From: Candidatus Poribacteria bacterium
GTDB taxonomy: Bacteria; Poribacteria; WGA-4E; GCA-2687025
Direction: 5' to 3'
DNA length: 64,000 nucleotides
NCBI GenBank assembly: GCA_026004875.1
Contig: BPJZ01000005.1
Span: forward strand, 86,922 to 150,921
Shown here in pieces: positions 41,309 to 52,360 of this stretch. Both the position numbers and the translations under genes were made by a program. Positions within the stretch are counted from its first letter, which is position 1; each line of letters starts with the position of its first letter. The notes below the pieces were generated by a model that was given only the letters and a program-made list of their open reading frames with translations, searched no databases and was not told where the DNA came from.

Positions 41309-42016
41309 GTGGTGGCCGCTCGAGTACACGTGGAGCTAGTCCGATCCCTCGACCCTCTTCGGGCCATCTTGCCCGAACTGGCAACGCGATACAGCATCGA
41401 AAGGATTGCCGTCTTCGGCTCCTTTGTCCGGGGCGAAGAGACGGAGAAAAGCGACCTGGACCTCCTCGTCCGCGGATGTCCCATCAGCGAAGCGGAGCGC
41501 CTTCAAGAGGAGCTGTCCCGCATCGCCGAGAGGCCGGTTCACCTGGTTCTTGAAGAGGCCCTAGGGCGGTACGTGGGGGAGCATGTACGCCAGGAAGCGG
41601 TGGACCTGCGGGAGCCCTTAGCGGATGCGCTTCGGGCCTTGGAGCCGCATCGCCGTCTTGTGGACCTCCGGGACGTGCTGAGCGAGATCGGCGACCTTTT
41701 GGACCGGCTTGCCACCGACCTACAGACCACGCCAATCGAGTGGGTTCGTACCGGCCGATGGCCGAGCCTGCTCGCCGACCTGCGCCGATGGGGGGCGTTA
41801 GCCCACGCGGTTCCGGCGGAGCGGTGGGGCGATCTTCCGCCGGTGCCCCATCGCCCGGTCGAGGCGCTCGCGGTGCTCTCAGAGGGAGCGGAGCCCTCCT
41901 CCGCCCAAGCGCTCTATCGGCTCATGGCCCTAGCCGTGCCCCGCTGGCGCCAGGCGATACCGGCGATGATCGCCGCTGAAACGGAACGGATCGCCGAAGA
42001 GCGGAGAGGCCGGTGA
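41309..42016 (+). CDS. MNT-type nucleotidyltransferase-domain protein with a helical C-terminal domain
   Basis: 235 residues from GTG 41309. N-terminal minimal nucleotidyltransferase motif VFGSFVRGEETEKSDLDLLV (GSx10DxD), as in MntA/KanNT-like proteins, followed by EELSRIAERPVHLVLEEALG. The C-terminal half (residues ~110-235) is helical (LVDLRDVLSEIGDLLDRLAT) and could be a HEPN-like or other partner domain, but I see no clear RxxxxH motif. MNT proteins usually pair with a separate HEPN toxin; here both halves are in one chain. It sits between a deacetylase and pyrK, with its stop overlapping the pyrK start. Function unknown. Confidence 0.65.
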   Translation: MVAARVHVELVRSLDPLRAILPELATRYSIERIAVFGSFVRGEETEKSDLDLLVRGCPISEAERLQEELSRIAERPVHLVLEEALGRYVGEHVRQEAVDLREPLADALRALEPHRRLVDLRDVLSEIGDLLDRLATDLQTTPIEWVRTGRWPSLLADLRRWGALAHAVPAERWGDLPPVPHRPVEALAVLSEGAEPSSAQALYRLMALAVPRWRQAIPAMIAAETERIAEERRGR

Positions 42017-42813
42017 ACCGTCACGACGTTCGTTCCCGCATCCTCGAAAAACGGTTCTTAGCTCCGCGTCACGTCTGGATGCGGCTGGAGTGTGACTGGG
42101 ATCCGGCGAGGGTGCAGCCGGGTCAGTTTCTGCATCTGTGGCTTCCGGAGCTTCGCGACCCGTTGCTCCGACGTCCCTATACGATCTACCGGATCCGGCC
42201 CGGCGAGGTGGAGATCCTCTTCCAGGTGGTCGGGAAGGGGAGCGGGCTCTTGGCCGAGCGAGAGCCAGGGGAAAGAGTTCACCTGCTTGGGCCGTTGGGC
42301 CGGGGATTTGCGCTGCCGGAGCCGGGGACCCGCGCGTTGATCGTCGGCGGCGGGGTCGGGATGGCGTCCCTCTTCCTGCTGATCCAGCGCCTTCGGGAGC
42401 AGGAGTTTGAGGTCGAGGTCTTCATCGGCGCGCGGAGCCGGGACTACCTCCTCTGTCGGGACGAAGCGGCAGAGTCTGGGGCGTTGGTCTGGCTGGCCAC
42501 CGAGGACGGGAGCGAAGGCTTCGCCGGCCTGGTGACCGAGCTGGTCGCTCAGCGACTGGAGCGGAACCCTCCGGAACGAGCCGTCCTTTACGGTTGCGGA
42601 CCAACACCGATGATGGAGGCGCTCGCTAAGGTCGGAGCAGCTCACCGCTTGCCGACCTACGTCGCGCTGGAGAACCGAATGGGATGCGCGCTTGGGGTCT
42701 GTTTGGGATGCGTCGTCCCGATCCGACGGGAGGGGACCTCCCGCTACGAGCGGGTCTGCACCGAAGGCCCCGTCTTCGAGGCAGCTCAGGTGTGTTGGGG
42801 ATTCCGAATATGA
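42013..42813 (+). CDS. pyrK: Dihydroorotate dehydrogenase electron-transfer subunit
   Basis: 266 residues. Carries electrons from dihydroorotate dehydrogenase PyrD (class 1B) to NAD+. FAD-binding LRRPYTIYRI, NAD-binding ALIVGGGVGMASLFLLIQRL, the GCGPTPMMEAL loop and the C-terminal [2Fe-2S] site in MGCALGVCLGCVVPI with the fourth Cys in YERVCTEGPVF. Spacing and length are typical. Translationally coupled at both ends: GTG overlaps the MNT-type gene, stop overlaps pyrD ATG. Confidence 0.94.
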   Translation: MNRHDVRSRILEKRFLAPRHVWMRLECDWDPARVQPGQFLHLWLPELRDPLLRRPYTIYRIRPGEVEILFQVVGKGSGLLAEREPGERVHLLGPLGRGFALPEPGTRALIVGGGVGMASLFLLIQRLREQEFEVEVFIGARSRDYLLCRDEAAESGALVWLATEDGSEGFAGLVTELVAQRLERNPPERAVLYGCGPTPMMEALAKVGAAHRLPTYVALENRMGCALGVCLGCVVPIRREGTSRYERVCTEGPVFEAAQVCWGFRI

Positions 42814-43739
42814 ACGCCTTTCAGCCGGACATGCGGGTTAACATCGGCGGCTTTCAAATGAAGAACCCGGTCATGGTGGCCTCGGGGACCTTCGGCTACG
42901 GCTCTGAGTACGCCGAGTTTGTGGACTTGAACCGTCTTGGCGGCGTTGCCGTTAAGAGCATCACCCTGGAGCCGCGAGCGGGCAACCCGCCGCCGCGCAT
43001 CGCCGAAACGCCCGCCGGCATGCTGAACACCATCGGACTTCAAAACGTCGGCCTGGAGGCTTTCCTCACCGAGAAGCTCCCCTATCTGCGGCAGTTTGAT
43101 ACCTCGGTCCTGGTCAACCTCTCCGGCTACACGGTCTCCGACTACGTTCAGCTGTGCGAACGGCTCAGCGAAGCCGAGGGCGTACACGGATTGGAGTTAA
43201 ACGTCTCCTGCCCGAACGTGGACTGCGGAGGAATGCAGTTTGGCGTGGACCCCCAGCTGTTGGGAGAGCTGGTCGCCGCCTGCCGTCGAGCAACCCGACT
43301 GCCGCTGATCGTCAAACTGTCGCCAAACGTGACCGACATTGTGACGCTTGCACGGGTTTGTGAAGAGCACGGCGCCGACGGACTCTCACTGATCAACACC
43401 CTTCTGGGGATGGCCATCGACGTGCGCACCCGGAGGGCGAAACTCTCACGCGGCGTCGGCGGGCTCTCCGGCCCGGCCATTCGACCGATTGCCATCCGAA
43501 TGGTCTGGGAGGTGGCCCGGACGGTTTCGCTTCCGATCATCGGCATGGGCGGCATCACCTGCACCGAGGACGCCCTGGAGTTTATCCTCGCCGGCGCAAC
43601 GGCCATCGCCGTCGGCACGGCCAACTTTGTCAACCCCTCCGTCTCGATGGAGATCGTCTCCGGCCTGGAGGCCTACTTTCAGGAGCACCAGATTGCCTCT
43701 GTGGATAAGATCGTCGGAACTGTCCAGGTGGACGGATAG
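42810..43739 (+). CDS. pyrD: Dihydroorotate dehydrogenase, class 1B catalytic subunit
   Basis: 309 residues from ATG 42810 (ATGA overlap with pyrK). FMN-dependent oxidation of dihydroorotate to orotate in pyrimidine synthesis. PVMVASGTFGYGSEYAEFVD, VKSITLEPRAGNPPPRIAET, catalytic Cys in NVSCPNVDCGGMQFG (Cys rather than Ser marks class 1), VKLSPNVTDIVTLARVCEEH, and phosphate-binding IIGMGGITCTEDALEFILAG. The pyrK partner confirms type 1B (NAD-linked). Confidence 0.96.
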   Translation: MNAFQPDMRVNIGGFQMKNPVMVASGTFGYGSEYAEFVDLNRLGGVAVKSITLEPRAGNPPPRIAETPAGMLNTIGLQNVGLEAFLTEKLPYLRQFDTSVLVNLSGYTVSDYVQLCERLSEAEGVHGLELNVSCPNVDCGGMQFGVDPQLLGELVAACRRATRLPLIVKLSPNVTDIVTLARVCEEHGADGLSLINTLLGMAIDVRTRRAKLSRGVGGLSGPAIRPIAIRMVWEVARTVSLPIIGMGGITCTEDALEFILAGATAIAVGTANFVNPSVSMEIVSGLEAYFQEHQIASVDKIVGTVQVDG

Positions 43740-44811
43740 AATCGGAACGAAAACCGCCATCTGGACGACCGTTCTGGCGCTGGGGGCGCTCCCGCTCTGG
43801 GCTCAAGAGAAGCCTCGCGATCCGGTGTTGTTGCTGGTCCCTGTCTTGGGATACTCGCCGGAAACCAGCTGGATGCTAGGTCTCTCGGGGATGTACCAGT
43901 CCTCCTGGACGGCTCAGCGTCCGCCGCAGTCGGTCTATGTGGTCAGCTTTTACACGCTTCGGAAGCAGTTCCTCAGCTCGATCTACTGGGATGCGCCGCT
44001 ACCGACCCGACAGCTTTACGTCCAAGTTGGGGCCGGGTTTGAGCGGTTCCCGGACCGATTCTATGGCCTAGGTCGGACAACCCAAGCGGAGGACTACGAG
44101 AAGTACACGCCGGAGCGGTTCTACTTTCAAGGCTGGGTGGGCCGCTCTTTGGGAAAGGGGTTCCGCGCGGGACCCCTCTGGGAGCTGAGCGCTCACCGGC
44201 TAATCGAGACCGACCCAGCGGGGAAGCTTGCCAGCGGAGCAGTCCTTGGCACCGAGCGGGGGACGCTTGTGGGGATCGGGCTCTTCCTAGAACGGGATAC
44301 GCGGGACCATCCAACTTCTCCCATATCCGGAGGATGGTATCGGGCGGAGTGGCTCCCGTTCCCGGCACTACTCGGCTCCGATTACGCACATGCCCGATGG
44401 CGGGTTCGGCTCCGCCGCTATCTCCAGGTCGGTCAACGGGGAACGGTCGCCCTCCAGGCGGAGGTAGAAGCCGCGACGGGTAAGGTGCCGTTCCACGCCC
44501 TGCCAAAGCTGGGCGGCTCCGAACGGCTCCGGGGATACTGGGCCGGTCGGTTTCGGGACCGTCGGCTTTATCTCGTTCAGGCGGAGCTTCGCCGGTATCG
44601 ACTCTGGGGGCCGTTGGGTGGGACGTTCTTCGTCGGCGTGGGCGACGTAGCTCCAGACTGGAACCGGCTCTCGCTCCGGAAGGCGCGCTGGTCGTTTGGC
44701 GTGGGAGTCCGGGCGCTTCTGGACGCGGAGGCCTCTTCGCACCTGCGACTCGACTACGCCATCGGCTCGGACGAACGGGGGTTCTACGTCAACTTCGGCG
44801 AGGCGTTCTGA
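43693..44811 (+). CDS. Outer-membrane beta-barrel, Omp85/surface-antigen C-terminal type
   Basis: A hydrophobic signal segment (AIWTTVLALGALPLWAQ) from about 43760 is followed by ~345 residues of barrel strands. The Bac_surface_Ag signature is clear: LGGSERLRGYWAGRFRDRRL, a QAELRRYRLWGPLGGTFFVG strand pair, and a terminal YAIGSDERGFYVNFGEAF ending in Phe. There are no POTRA domains, so it is a short relative of BamA/TamA, perhaps a passive or patatin-independent transporter. No ATG/GTG/TTG lies near 43741 where the coding signal begins; the nearest permitted start is TTG 43693 inside pyrD, so the N terminus is uncertain and an indel is possible. Confidence 0.75.
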   Translation: MPLWIRSSELSRWTDRIGTKTAIWTTVLALGALPLWAQEKPRDPVLLLVPVLGYSPETSWMLGLSGMYQSSWTAQRPPQSVYVVSFYTLRKQFLSSIYWDAPLPTRQLYVQVGAGFERFPDRFYGLGRTTQAEDYEKYTPERFYFQGWVGRSLGKGFRAGPLWELSAHRLIETDPAGKLASGAVLGTERGTLVGIGLFLERDTRDHPTSPISGGWYRAEWLPFPALLGSDYAHARWRVRLRRYLQVGQRGTVALQAEVEAATGKVPFHALPKLGGSERLRGYWAGRFRDRRLYLVQAELRRYRLWGPLGGTFFVGVGDVAPDWNRLSLRKARWSFGVGVRALLDAEASSHLRLDYAIGSDERGFYVNFGEAF

Positions 44812-45294: not shown

Positions 45295-46386
45295 ATGCGC
45301 GACCTGGTTCGAATTGACGATCTGAACCGCGAGGAGATGGAGCGGATCTTCCGACTCGCGGAGGACATGGAGGTCCTTCGGATGATGGGCTCCGACCTGT
45401 GCAAGGGTCGGATTTTAGCAACGATCTTCTACGAGCCGAGTACACGGACGCGACTCTCGTTTGAAAGCGCAATGCTCCGCCTGGGCGGGGAGGTGCTTGG
45501 CTTTGCCGATCCGCAGGCCACCTCGTTTGTCAAGGAAGAGACGCTTGCCGACACGATTCACATGGTCTGCAATTACGCCGATCTAATCGTCATTCGGCAC
45601 CGCTGGGCCGGTGCGGCGGCGCTCGCTGCGCACCATTCCTCCGTTCCGATCGTCAACGCCGGAGACGACAGCCACCAGCACCCAACCCAGACGCTGACCG
45701 ATTTGTACACGCTTCGGAAGCGAGGCCGTCGGATCGAGGAGCTGACGGTTGGGATCGTCGGCGACCTTCGTTACGGCCGGGCGGCCCACTCGTTGGCGTA
45801 CGGACTGGCCGCCTACGGCGCGCGGATGATCTTCATCGCACCGGAGGGACTAGAGATGCCCGAGGAGGTCTGCTGGCGGCTCCAGGCAGAGTACCGGGCG
45901 CGGTTTGAGACGGTTCGCGAGCCAAAGGAGGCCCTCCCAGAACTGGACGTGATCTACATGAACCGGCTCCAGAAGGAACGGCTCCCCCAGGACCTGGACG
46001 TCTCAGAAGTGCGGCGCATCCTGGCCGCCTACCGCCTCGATCCAGAAATGATGAAACACGCCCGACCCGACTGTCTGGTGATGCACCCGTTGCCACGCGT
46101 CGAGGAGATCGCTCGGGAGCTAGACGCCGACCCTCGCGCGATCTACTTTGAACAGTCGGCCAACGGCGTCCCGGTACGGATGGCCCTGATGGCGATCCTC
46201 CTGAACCGAGTGGATCAACCTCCCTTACGAGGAAAGGTCCGAACGGTTCGGCACCTGGAGGAGCACGTCTGCCAGAACCCTGTCTGTGTCACCCAGCAGG
46301 AGCCGAACAACGTTCCGCCTCAGATCGAAGAGCCGGTGGACGGTCGCCCAATGTGCGCTTACTGCTCCCAATGGGTCACGGTGTGA
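45295..46386 (+). CDS. pyrB: Aspartate carbamoyltransferase with a fused PyrI-type zinc domain
   Basis: 363 residues. Catalytic part (1-~305): carbamoyl-phosphate motif FYEPSTRTRLSFESAMLRLG, HRWAGAAA, NAGDDSHQHPTQTLTDLYTL, LTVGIVGDLRYGRAAHSLAY, MHPLPRVEEIARELDADPRA, YFEQSANGVPVRMALM. After a linker comes a zinc ribbon Cys326-x4-Cys331-x22-Cys354-x2-Cys357 (CQNPVC, then CAYC), closely matching the C-terminal zinc domain of the regulatory subunit PyrI, with the typical QQEP after the first Cys pair. The allosteric nucleotide-binding domain of PyrI is absent. First committed step of pyrimidine synthesis. A weak AGGA precedes the ATG; mpg overlaps the stop. Confidence 0.94.
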   Translation: MRDLVRIDDLNREEMERIFRLAEDMEVLRMMGSDLCKGRILATIFYEPSTRTRLSFESAMLRLGGEVLGFADPQATSFVKEETLADTIHMVCNYADLIVIRHRWAGAAALAAHHSSVPIVNAGDDSHQHPTQTLTDLYTLRKRGRRIEELTVGIVGDLRYGRAAHSLAYGLAAYGARMIFIAPEGLEMPEEVCWRLQAEYRARFETVREPKEALPELDVIYMNRLQKERLPQDLDVSEVRRILAAYRLDPEMMKHARPDCLVMHPLPRVEEIARELDADPRAIYFEQSANGVPVRMALMAILLNRVDQPPLRGKVRTVRHLEEHVCQNPVCVTQQEPNNVPPQIEEPVDGRPMCAYCSQWVTV

Positions 46387-47051
46387 TGGAAAACGGCAGC
46401 GTTCCCATCCCGCCGAAGGGATGGGGACCGATCCTTCGAGAGGAGTTCTTCCGACGCTCTGCGCCAGAGGTCGCCTACGACCTGCTTGGCGCGGCGCTGA
46501 TCCACTGGACTCCCGAAGGCCCTGTCGGCGGACGGATCGTCGAAGTGGAGGCGTATCTTCCCGACGATCCAGCCTGCCACGCCTATCGAGGTCCCACCGA
46601 CCGAAATCGGGTGATGTTCGGACCGCCGGGGCGAAGCTATGTATACTTTAATTACGGATGTCACTGGCTCTACAACGTAGTGACCGGGCCGGAAGGGGTC
46701 GGCTCCGGGGTGTTGATTCGCGCCCTGGAACCGCTGTGGGGAGTTGAGGCGATGCGCCGCCGTCGTGCCGGCTCGGGCGGGGACACCGGTCGGCTCAAGC
46801 GGCTCACCTCCGGTCCGGGACGGCTGACCCAGGCGCTGGGGATCGACGGCTCGCTGTACGGACACCCGGTGTGGGAACCGCCGTTGACTCTCTACCGAGC
46901 TCCCAAGCGAGACTTTTCGGTAACGATCACAACGCGGATCGGCATTCGCGTGGGCGTGCGCTCTCCGCTTCGGTTTCTGATGACGGGGAGCCCTTATATC
47001 TCCCAGCCAACCCGTCGTCAGCGGAGGTCCAGAGGGGATGAGCGCCTTTGA
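46386..47051 (+). CDS. 3-methyladenine DNA glycosylase (AAG/MPG family)
   Basis: 221 residues from ATG 46386, which overlaps the pyrB stop by one base. AAG family motifs: RRSAPEVAYDLLGAALIH, IVEVEAYLPDDPACHAYRGP (catalytic Glu), TDRNRVMFGPPGRSYVYFNY, GCHWLYNVVTG, SGVLIRALEP, LTSGPGRLTQALGIDGSLYG. It excises alkylated purines as a monofunctional glycosylase. All key residues are present and the length is normal. Its 3' end overlaps the following regulator gene by 14 bases. Confidence 0.95.
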   Translation: MENGSVPIPPKGWGPILREEFFRRSAPEVAYDLLGAALIHWTPEGPVGGRIVEVEAYLPDDPACHAYRGPTDRNRVMFGPPGRSYVYFNYGCHWLYNVVTGPEGVGSGVLIRALEPLWGVEAMRRRRAGSGGDTGRLKRLTSGPGRLTQALGIDGSLYGHPVWEPPLTLYRAPKRDFSVTITTRIGIRVGVRSPLRFLMTGSPYISQPTRRQRRSRGDERL

Positions 47052-48449
47052 CGGAGCGACCGTTTTAATTGTGGACGAAGACCCACGGCAGCGGGAACGG
47101 CTCTCCGCCGCGCTCGCCGAGGAGGCGGGACGGGTGCTTCGAGTTCAGAACGAGACCGAAGCGATCAACTGCTTGATGTCCACCCAGGTGGACATCCTGA
47201 TCGCCCCGCTCCGCTCGCCCCATGTGGACGGCGGGAAGCTGCTTCGGCTGGCCCAGGACCTCTACGAGCACACAGCGGTGATCCTGATGGTCGATTCGGA
47301 CGCTCTGGAAGCCGACTCCGCCGTACGGCTGATGTTGGACGGAGCGAACGACACACTCACTCGACCGGTGAACACTGAACGGCTGCGGGCGATCGTCCGC
47401 CGCATCCTCCGGCAACAGGAGATCGTCCGGGAGCGGGACTCGTTGCGGACCCAGTTGCAGCACCCGGCGGAGATGCTCGGCTTTACTGCCCGCCTCGCCT
47501 AAGATGCAGGCCGTCGCCGAACGCATTCTCCAACTGGCCGCCGCGCCAAACACGACCGTTCTGATCTGTGGCGAGAGCGGAACGGGCAAGGAGGTGGCCG
47601 CCCGGGCGCTTCATTTTCACAGCCCCCGGCGGCGAGGGCCGTTCGTCCCGTTTAACTGCGCCAGTGTCCCGGAGACGCTGATCGAATCGGAGCTGTTTGG
47701 ACACGAGGCGGGGGCCTTCACCGGCGCCCAGACCCGACGGCGGGGCCGCTTTGAGCTGGCCGACGGCGGCACGCTCCTGCTGGACGAGGTCGGGGAGCTC
47801 TCCCTTCAGGCGCAGGCCAAGCTGCTGCGGGTGCTGGAGACCCGTCAATTCGAACGGGTCGGCGGCGAGCGGCCGATCCGAGTGGATGTGCGGATTGTGG
47901 CAGCAACCAACCGAGACCTGGAGGCCGAGGTCCGCGCGGGACGCTTTCGCGCCGATCTGTACCACCGGCTTCGAGTAGCCACCGTCGAGCTGCCCCCGCT
48001 GCGCGAACGAGTCGAGGACATCCCCCTGCTGGTCCAGGCTTTCATTGAAGAGTTCAGCGCGGCGAACAAAAAGAACGTCCGAGGGATCACCTCCCGTGCA
48101 TTGAGGCTGATGGAGCGTTATCCTTGGTACGGGAACGTGCGCGAGCTCCGCAACGCGGTCGAGGCGATGGTCGTAGTGGCCCAGTCGGAGGTGCTCGACG
48201 TCGAAGACCTTCCCGTCTGGCTAACGCGGGCGGTTACCAGAGACTCCGCCGCCAAAGCCGACGGGAGCACCCAGCAACGAGGGCACAATCCCGATTCCCG
48301 TCTACGCGGGAATGAGCTGGAAGGAGATCGAACGGGAAGCGATCCGAGCAACGCTTCAGTTGACCGGAGGGAATCGGACGGAGGCCGCGCGCATTCTAGG
48401 AATCGGTCGGCGAACGCTGTTCCGCAAGCTGAAGGCGTACGGACTATGA
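47038..48449 (+). CDS. NtrC-family sigma54 activator with a degenerate receiver (two frame breaks)
   Basis: Residues ~1-125 are a receiver fold ([20 protein letters not shown]) whose phosphoacceptor region reads [14 protein letters not shown], with Pro where Asp belongs; the switch Thr is lost (LMVDSD) and the Lys is Arg (LTRPVN). After a frame change near 47490 the AAA+ domain follows: Walker [21 protein letters not shown], the sigma54 loop [14 protein letters not shown], Walker [30 protein letters not shown] sensor, [18 protein letters not shown]. After another near 48265 the Fis-type HTH ([40 protein letters not shown]) ends at TGA 48447-48449. It activates sigma54 promoters; control is probably not by phosphorylation. 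Confidence 0.85.
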
Positions 48450-49270
48450 ACCACTGGGAGACGACTTGGGCATCGGTGGGTCTTGCCGCTGGAGCGGGGG
48501 TCCGGCTCCAAGTGGCGGAGGTGGAGGCGCCCACGCTCTGGTCGGCCCAGGTCGCTCCCGACCACCGGCCCGGTGTGGGGGACTTTCTTGGCCCGGGGAT
48601 TGCGGTGGTCGTGTTGGCAGCCCTTGGCTGGCTGGCCTGGCGTTGGTCTCAGACTCGAGCGACGCGCGGGTTGCGCCGGGCGGTGCGCCGAGCCCGTCGC
48701 TTTAACGAACAGACCCGGGAGATGACCTTTCCCCATCCGGTACCAGAGATGGAGGCAGAGCGTCGGGCGGATATCCCCCGCTCTTCGGCATCGTCTCAAG
48801 AGCCGGAGGAGAGAAGGTCCGTACGTTCCGGGCGCCGACAACGAGCCGTTCGGGAGAGAGCCCCAAGCGAGCGGAACGAGGAGGAAGCGATGGAGCAACC
48901 GGTCCTGGATCCGCGCGACCTGGACGCTCTCAAGCGCTTAGAAGCGATTCAACAGGAGTGGGATCCCAAAGAGCCGCGCACGGCCTATCGGCGGCTGGAG
49001 GACTTCATCCGTCGTTACCTCTTTGAGACCTTCGGCGTTCGTGCCTTTGGGATGCGCACCTCCGAGCTGTTGGCGGCGCTTCCCCGCTCGACCGAGGACG
49101 CCCTTTTCGACTACGTTGCGGAGATTCTCACCACCTGCGAACTGGCGGAACTGCCGCGTCACCGGCCCGACCGGCGAGAAGTGGAGCACCTGATCCGCCT
49201 CGCTCGGGAGGTGGTGCTCCTTCAGGCACGGACCGCAAGACGCGGGGATCGTTCCCCAAAGCAGTCCTGA
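48446..49270 (+). CDS. Membrane protein with a BatD-like C-terminal helical module
   Basis: 274 residues from ATG 48446, overlapping the stop of the sigma54 activator (ATGA). One TM helix ([20 protein letters not shown]) after a ~40-residue N-terminal segment, then a basic/acidic low-complexity linker, and from ~residue 155 a helical module ([61 protein letters not shown]). The same order of TM, linker and 'Y-L-F-R...T-SE-LL' module is found in the BatD-like protein at 61787. The role is unknown; a stress- or oxygen-tolerance-type complex is a guess. There is no clear signal peptide. Confidence 0.6.
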
Positions 49271-50754: not shown

Positions 50755-52360
50755 ATGGCACATCGGCAACCGGAACCCGAAGCGCGTCGGAGTTCAAACC
50801 GGCTCCTGTACTGGATTATCGGAGCGATCGTCGTCGGCGTTCTGGTGGGCGGCTTCCTTCCCAGTTGGGGAACGAAAACCTACTTTCTGGGCGAGCTCTT
50901 TCTGAACGCCTTAAAGATGATCGTCGTTCCGTTGGTGTTGTTCTCGATGATTGTGGGGATCACCAGCCTAGGCGACGTGCGCCGCTTAGGCCCCATCGGC
51001 GGGCGAACAATCCTCTACTACATGCTCACCACCGGCCTCTCTGTGCTGTTAGGGCTGATCCTCGTGAACCTCATCCGGCCGGGAGCCGGGCTGGGCCACG
51101 GCGAGGAGCACCCCGATGTGGCCTACCGGCTGGATCCGAACGATTTCCGGCGGGTGATCGTCCCGGAGGGCACGTGGAGCCGCACCCGTCCGGAGAATTA
51201 CGTCGGAAAGTACGTCCTGATCCTCACCGACCAGAACGTTCAAGGAGTGATTACAGCGATCGACTCCTCTTCGGCGACGGTGCGCTTTTGGGAGCGCCGC
51301 GGCGCAGAGGAGGTGATCTACATCGTCTCTGAGGACGGCCAGCGGCTACCGTTTCGACGAGTCAACGGAGAGCTTGTCTCTGCGGAACCCCAAGTCCGCC
51401 CGGAGGGAAGAGGTCTCGCCATCGATGTGCCGGTGGCGGAGCGGGGTGCGCGGCAAGGAGCGGCAGACGATCGGGGAGACGCTCCGCGAGGTGGTCCTTG
51501 GTCTGATTCCCAGCAACGTTTTTGAGGCGATGGTGGAGATGAACGTCCTGCCGCTAATCGTCTTCGCGCTGCTGTTTGGAGCAGTGCTCTCAACGCTTGG
51601 GGAGCGCGGAGCGATCGCGGTGGACCTGTTCCGCTCCCTCAACGACGCGATCATGCGTCTGGTCCATTGGGTGATGACGGTCGCTCCGATCGGCATCTTT
51701 GGGCTGGTCGCAGGCCGAATCGGAAACGCGGGCGGATTCGCTGGATTCCTGCCGGAGCTGATCGCCGTTGGGAAGTACAGCTTTACGGTCGTTTTAGGCC
51801 TTGCTATTCATGGAATCGTCACCTTGCCGTTGATCCTCTGGTTGGTGGGCCGCCGAAACCCGGTCCAGTACGTCCGCGGAGTGGCCGCCGCGCTTTTGAA
51901 CGCGTTCTCGACCGCCTCGAGTTCGGCCACGCTGCCGCTGACCATGGAAGGCGTCGAGGAGGAAAACGGCATCTCCAACCGGACGGCCAGCTTTGTGCTG
52001 CCGCTGGGGGCCACCATCAACATGGACGGGACGGCCCTTTATGAAGCGGTGGCAGCGATGTTCATCGCGCAGGTCTACGGCATTGAGCTGGGGCCGATTC
52101 AGCAACTGGTAATCTTTCTAACGGCGACCCTGGCCGCGATCGGCGCGGCGGGGATCCCCGAAGCCGGTCTGGTGACGATGGTGATCGTCCTTCGAGCCGT
52201 TGGGCTGCCGATCGAGGGGATCACGCTGATCCTGACGGTCGACTGGCTGCTAGATCGCTTCCGGACAACGGTCAACGTCTGGGGCGATGCGGTGGGCGCC
52301 GGCGTGGTCGAGACGCTGGAGGAGCGCGCCGCTGGAGCGAAGGCTGAGGCCGGCGCCTAG
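50755..52360 (+). CDS. Dicarboxylate/glutamate:cation symporter (DAACS family) with a long loop insertion (frame break)
   Basis: About 535 residues. TM helices as in GltP/Dct[21 protein letters not shown] (conserved), [31 protein letters not shown]; then a ~100-residue hydrophilic insert (residues ~115-235; [40 protein letters not shown]) before [20 protein letters not shown]. Transport core is intact: HP1 [22 protein letters not shown]7 [22 protein letters not shown]2 [20 protein letters not shown] and [21 protein letters not shown] frame change near 51450 joins the halves. GGGAGG precedes the ATG. It imports glutamate/aspartate or C4-dicarboxylates with Na+ or H+. Confidence 0.9.

Follow-up and report, generated by a model that had tools for sequence, protein, structure and literature searches.

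What is gained by an aspartate carbamoyltransferase (ATCase) catalytic chain that carries the zinc domain of the regulatory chain PyrI and no other part of it? The question is raised by the pyrB gene in a 64,000-nucleotide stretch of DNA from a Candidatus Poribacteria bacterium (assembly GCA_026004875.1, contig BPJZ01000005.1, positions 86,922 to 150,921), referred to below as the window. According to PMC4581275 and PMC6022934, bacterial ATCases are bound to dihydroorotase (DHOase), bound to PyrI (separate or fused), or free trimers, the last of these, class C, consisting of the catalytic trimer only (PMC6022934). The tailed PyrB fits none of these three classes cleanly. It is fairly probable that the enzyme is a class-B-derived ATCase in which a zinc domain clamps the catalytic trimer in cis, without nucleotide control. 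The gene and its parts are located as follows (window coordinates):

45295..46386, forward strand: pyrB, aspartate carbamoyltransferase with a C-terminal PyrI-type zinc domain, 363 aa (open reading frame, ORF; TIGR00670 match)
45295..46209, forward strand: catalytic domains, residues 1-305 (Pfam OTCace_N 2-141 and OTCace 149-301; catalytic residues invariant)
46210..46269, forward strand: linker from the catalytic domain to the ribbon, residues 306-325 (sequence variable among homologues; AF2 model)
46270..46365, forward strand: core of the PyrI-type zinc ribbon, C326-x4-C331-x22-C354-x2-C357, zinc binding predicted (profile comparison, alignment)

The stretch 45295-46386 on the forward strand is a single open frame, 363 codons long without its stop, and the coordinates, frame, length and cysteine positions (C326, C331, C354 and C357) given in the initial annotation of the gene were all reproduced. 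The window PyrB exceeds the curated cut-offs of both catalytic models, with 330.2 bits against 236.95 for TIGR00670 and 307.2 bits against 263 for NF002032, and the nearest solved chain is 1ml4 (Pyrococcus abyssi). A homologue search, the query of which included the tail, yielded a list of the best 120 of 7,986 matches, and 60 of these 120 proteins were aligned (alignment A1). The residues S49, R51, T52, S77, K80, R101, H129, Q132, R162, R224, Q226, P265 and L266 are invariant in all 60 aligned homologues; their catalytic roles are presumably those of the E. coli PyrB positions. Judged by sequence, residues 1-305 are a complete ATCase catalytic chain. One close relative of the window protein, L002/P0002, reads SPRTR for STRTR at the carbamoyl-phosphate motif, possibly through a sequencing error, and three residues are missing just ahead of this motif.

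The 58 residues that come after residue 305 contain all four cysteines, with the spacing C-x4-C-x22-C-x2-C, whereas the ATCase regulatory chain 9een_L, which we take to be that of E. coli, has C-x4-C-x23-C-x2-C. Profile comparison indicates that the tail family is homologous to the PyrI zinc domain (HHalign 98.3), and a PDB profile search with the tail returned 13 matches, 12 of them ATCase chains and the thirteenth unrelated (E 0.26). The earlier description of the protein as a PyrB ending in the PyrI zinc domain alone is upheld by both results. The motif C-x4-C-x(15-40)-C-x2-C stands at the end of 120/120 listed homologues and the four cysteines are invariant in 60/60 aligned ones, so the loss of cysteines in close homologues, which the initial annotation had named as a sign against its reading, was not seen, and a chance cysteine pattern was rejected. 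The 30 PyrB loci of relatives comprise 29 in which the tail motif was found by script, and L002, which has the motif too. The Pfam family PyrI_C is above its cut-off in 31 of 58 genomes of relatives and matches 34 of the 60 members of alignment A1 at E<=0.001. In G002 and G005, two of six genomes from the same family, PyrI_C matched nowhere along the pyrB contig even at E<=1, and yet their pyrB tails (L006 and L005) keep all four cysteines. The AF2 model of the linker region has a pLDDT of about 88 over residues 311-330. The proteins P0006, P0009, P0010 and P0012-P0018 keep the four cysteines and lack the Asn of C-x-N-x2-C, the equivalent of PyrI Asn111.

The tailed form is widespread. Scanning of the tail-region alignment against genome contigs revealed at least 80 loci, a sample to which all phylum counts refer. 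Among the 80 loci listed, 62 encode a tailed PyrB, 10 a PyrB without tail and the remaining 8 an archaeal PyrI as a chain of its own; 7 of these 8 were used in further analysis. The record titles assign the 62 tailed loci to Clostridia (33), Chloroflexota (11), Poribacteria (7), Armatimonadota with Hebobacteria (5), Planctomycetota (3) and Alphaproteobacteria (3), and thus cover six phyla. The oddity of one metagenome-assembled genome (MAG) was rejected as an explanation on the basis of these loci and of the tailed homologues. A search with a Ruminococcus protein gave the tail motif and a precomputed PyrI_C assignment in 120/120 among the matches listed, and one tailed protein, P0144, bears the name Ruminococcus flavefaciens and no MAG label. 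The tailed PyrBs of Chloroflexota, Planctomycetota and Alphaproteobacteria have 55-71 residues beyond the ribbon and a longer catalytic stretch, 335-359 residues in the cut rows compared with 300-309 in most others. Open frames of 472-546 residues were noted for L059, L070, L100, L115 and their groups in these three taxa.

The nucleotide domain of PyrI (PF01948) was found neither in the chain nor in any of the 84 genomes of the phylum searched, 55 of high quality among them, which agrees with the earlier statement that the allosteric domain is absent. None of the 58 genomes of relatives had a match, and for the phylum genomes searched a PyrI nucleotide domain of recognisable sequence was rejected. 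The check for a separate pyrI suggested in the initial annotation gave no PF01948 match in the own genome, which is only 64.3% complete, and the phylum count therefore carries the weight. The same search was positive in 7 of 14 control genomes, archaea and bacteria among them. Fifty of the 80 scan loci had their genomes searched as well. PF01948 is missing from all 41 that carry a tailed PyrB (6 of them titled Poribacteria, 35 from other groups); it is present in the one archaeon and in 7 of the 8 bacterial genomes whose PyrB has no tail, Defluviicoccus being the exception. Fisher's p for this exclusion is 9e-8, with kinship not corrected for. A PyrI with nucleotide domain, as a class B holoenzyme has, was accordingly not detected in the genome.

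The origin of the tailed form was approached through the catalytic domain. The row set comprised 90 rows, with only 15 of the 120 P proteins. L036, L073, L074 and P0002 were left out for want of an ST[RG]T match and L138 for want of an ORF; also left out were the archaeal PyrI loci (8) and, as duplicates, L124-L130, L137 and L139. Trees were built from 67 and then 56 hand-thinned rows, the long-branch L104 and L112 being excluded from the 56-row tree, which is unrooted and has a small tail-less side (11 rows). In this tree clostridial PyrB with separate PyrI is the sister group of the tailed clostridial proteins (96/81), which stand apart from the side formed by Poribacteria, Chloroflexota, Planctomycetota and Alphaproteobacteria; L042, a tailed Armatimonadota protein, likewise belongs to the PyrI-partnered side, the fork there being open. 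The tail trait needs two changes on the tree and two to three over bootstraps, a single change being allowed by 0% of 200. A constraint that unites all tailed rows comes at a price of 20.2 log units, with a borderline p of 0.048 in the approximately unbiased (AU) test. All 7 tail-less bacterial genomes with PyrI have pyrB adjoining pyrI, and in L123 pyrI starts 2 bases past the pyrB stop. In a Ruminococcus chain, residues 306-357 match positions 85-137 of the 142 in the PyrI model NF002063, which is only the part after the nucleotide domain and places the junction at the PyrI domain boundary.

A deletion from the end of pyrB to the PyrI domain boundary, in an adjacent pyrB-pyrI pair and at least twice, would produce such chains. 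The tailed form had been considered a possible intermediate in ATCase evolution. An ancient intermediate is weakened by the changes on the tree, at least two, and by the Ruminococcus junction. Because the nucleotide domain already occurs in archaea and bacteria as well, the evidence points to a derived form and a repeated reduction, although an unrooted tree cannot establish the direction on its own.

Positions 164, 165, 239 and 240 of the catalytic chain were counted as the allosteric lock, 165 and 240 being sites that we assume to belong to it. According to PMC6056424, Lys164 and Glu239 of E. coli ATCase form different bonds in the two quaternary states, substitution of either gives an R-state enzyme without cooperativity, and a bond connects Glu109 of the catalytic chain to PyrI Asn111. 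For the count, the remaining P proteins, P0002 included, were added to the 90-row set. The lock positions are intact in 17/17 PyrI-partnered rows as opposed to 22/179 tailed rows (9/9 and 4/27 after thinning at 70% identity), at least one lock residue being lost in the other 157 of the 179. The 17 partnered rows include that of P. abyssi, whose PyrI is presumed, and L114, whose genome was unsearched for PyrI and whose relative L102 has PyrI. Position 109 is Glu in 17/17 PyrI-partnered rows and Ala in 123/125 Poribacteria-type and 26/32 clostridial tailed rows. The window chain has R, Y, D and V at positions 164, 165, 239 and 240, and A at 109. As read from these rows, the lock is lost in different parts by different lineages.

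The window protein was compared with the closest known systems. With the E. coli class B enzyme (PyrB + PyrI, c6r6) it shares the PyrB-type catalytic domain and a zinc domain whose four-cysteine spacing is off by one residue; here, however, the zinc domain stands in cis, no nucleotide domain was found, and positions 109 and 240 are changed (A and V). The Thermotoga-type PyrB-PyrI fusion likewise combines catalytic and PyrI-derived parts in one chain, and carries the whole regulatory polypeptide. Against the model of this fusion (NF009916, 525 positions) the window chain, which lacks the nucleotide domain, reaches 117.9 bits with a cut-off of 800 and covers only model positions 10-337, and is not a full fusion. 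As in class C (the Bacillus subtilis-type free trimer), no regulatory chain was found and nucleotide insensitivity is expected, whereas a class C chain has the catalytic domain only and the window chain has the PyrI zinc domain in addition. Markby et al. (1991) reportedly obtained a complex of the E. coli catalytic trimer with an isolated zinc peptide of PyrI, 70 residues long. That complex, also a trimer with zinc domain and without nucleotide domain, is said to have been laboratory-made and non-covalent, in contrast to the window protein with the zinc domain on its own chain; by analogy it is the closest model for the tailed PyrB. Literature searches by title and abstract opening revealed no description of a fusion between PyrB and only the zinc domain, and the three-domain make-up is already visible in the database Pfam annotation of homologues.

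In the proposed mechanism, the ribbon would form round a single zinc ion and, in cis, likely lie against the catalytic trimer, at the place where PyrI normally docks. The docked ribbon likely stabilises the trimer and would thereby take over the stabilising part of the job of PyrI. Such a trimer would have lost its response to ATP, CTP and UTP, and the link from trimer to trimer would be gone. Only tentatively can a wider proposal be made, namely a new ATCase class with at least two bacterial origins, in which only the nucleotide-sensing domain was cut from pyrB-pyrI, leaving a self-clamped, active-state trimer in six phyla.

Several observations weigh against this interpretation: (i) homology to the PyrI zinc domain holds for the tail family as a whole, whereas the window chain itself lies below the PyrI_C cut-off (20.6 against 23.4 bits) and gave no PyrI_C match at E<=0.001 in the Pfam scan; (ii) the window protein no longer has Glu109, with which PyrI Asn111 pairs on the catalytic chain, a loss that concerns the docking, and the Asn111 equivalent is missing in 10 of the 120 listed homologues, several nearest relatives among them; (iii) Glu109 is kept in 12/17 rows of Chloroflexota, Planctomycetota and Alphaproteobacteria and in 5/5 Armatimonadota/L083 rows; (iv) the 22 tailed rows with an intact lock could belong to enzymes that still switch; (v) the rows of the lock count are related by descent and are not independent of one another, and gaps interrupt the aligned 240s loop; (vi) the own genome is incomplete, and several of the 50 genomes of the exclusion test are small, their completeness not being stated.

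Among the other explanations, a ribbon that links catalytic trimers in pairs, as a hexamer, by extending to the facing trimer or by swapping between chains, is unlikely, although it survives best. In the T state of E. coli ATCase the zinc domain is said to contact the facing trimer, and the inter-trimer lock residues are kept in 3/32 clostridial and 18/125 Poribacteria-type tailed rows. The initial annotation, too, had seen in the tail an assembly module holding trimers together. The dimer contact of regulatory chains, however, lies in the nucleotide domain, which is missing here, and the zinc domain alone is therefore not expected to bridge trimers. The loss of lock residues in most tailed rows also argues against a bridge. 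In known class B enzymes it is regulatory dimers that join the two catalytic trimers (PMC4581275).

Slightly less likely still is a ribbon that serves as a docking handle for dihydroorotase or carbamoyl-phosphate synthase, or as a zinc or redox sensor of activity. Two pyrimidine-pathway neighbours of the window pyrB would suit a docking handle:

42013..42813, forward strand: pyrK-like, dihydroorotate dehydrogenase electron-transfer subunit (DHODB_Fe-S_bind)
42684..43739, forward strand: pyrD-like dihydroorotate dehydrogenase (DHO_dh 274 bits, residues 51-330), the true start probably being further in than the listed 42684

In L059, pyrC- and carA-like ORFs, named by eye, lie beside the tailed gene, and four-cysteine knots are generally known to be potentially redox-labile. 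On the other hand, no partner protein was identified, and no dihydroorotase was present among the ORFs scanned between 40.3 and 51.5 kb, a range in which not every ORF was scanned. The homologous PyrI domain is taken to bind PyrB, the Asn111-Glu109 bond being one contact, and the simplest partner of the ribbon is therefore its own chain.

A separate nucleotide-binding regulator, too diverged for PF01948 and keeping the enzyme allosteric, is improbable: the gaps in the own genome and the tailed rows with an intact lock leave some room for it, but the PF01948 counts in the phylum and in the tailed-PyrB genomes, obtained with positive controls, speak against it, and the docking place of its zinc domain would already be occupied in cis. 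The cysteines as a chance pattern or a decaying remnant without function are the least credible reading, to which the sub-threshold PyrI_C score of the window chain lends something and which is already contradicted by cysteines invariant while the linker drifts and by a motif shared by all listed homologues and by loci of six phyla.

Further features of the locus concern the genes around pyrB. Between pyrD and pyrB is an ORF (43489-44811) with an Omp85-superfamily domain. A methylpurine-DNA glycosylase gene follows pyrB, and its probable ATG shares bases with the pyrB stop TGA (46384-46388), an arrangement suggestive of translational coupling between this DNA-repair gene and pyrB. Downstream, a response-regulator receiver domain (47038-47502) abuts a sigma-54 activator domain (47504-49270) in a different frame, as if an NtrC-type regulator had been split by a frameshift, possibly through an assembly error. 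The sodium:dicarboxylate symporter ORF at 50755-51525 spans only profile positions 1-97 of 387 and is apparently broken or frameshifted.

ATCase is the textbook allosteric enzyme, with three bacterial classes according to PMC6022934. The tailed form, widespread and with the zinc domain of PyrI but not its nucleotide domain, represents nature's own experiment in which the two jobs of PyrI are separated, and makes the sole contribution of the zinc domain to the catalytic trimer testable. The clostridial second case adjoins close relatives with a complete pyrB-pyrI pair, which makes a direct comparison possible.
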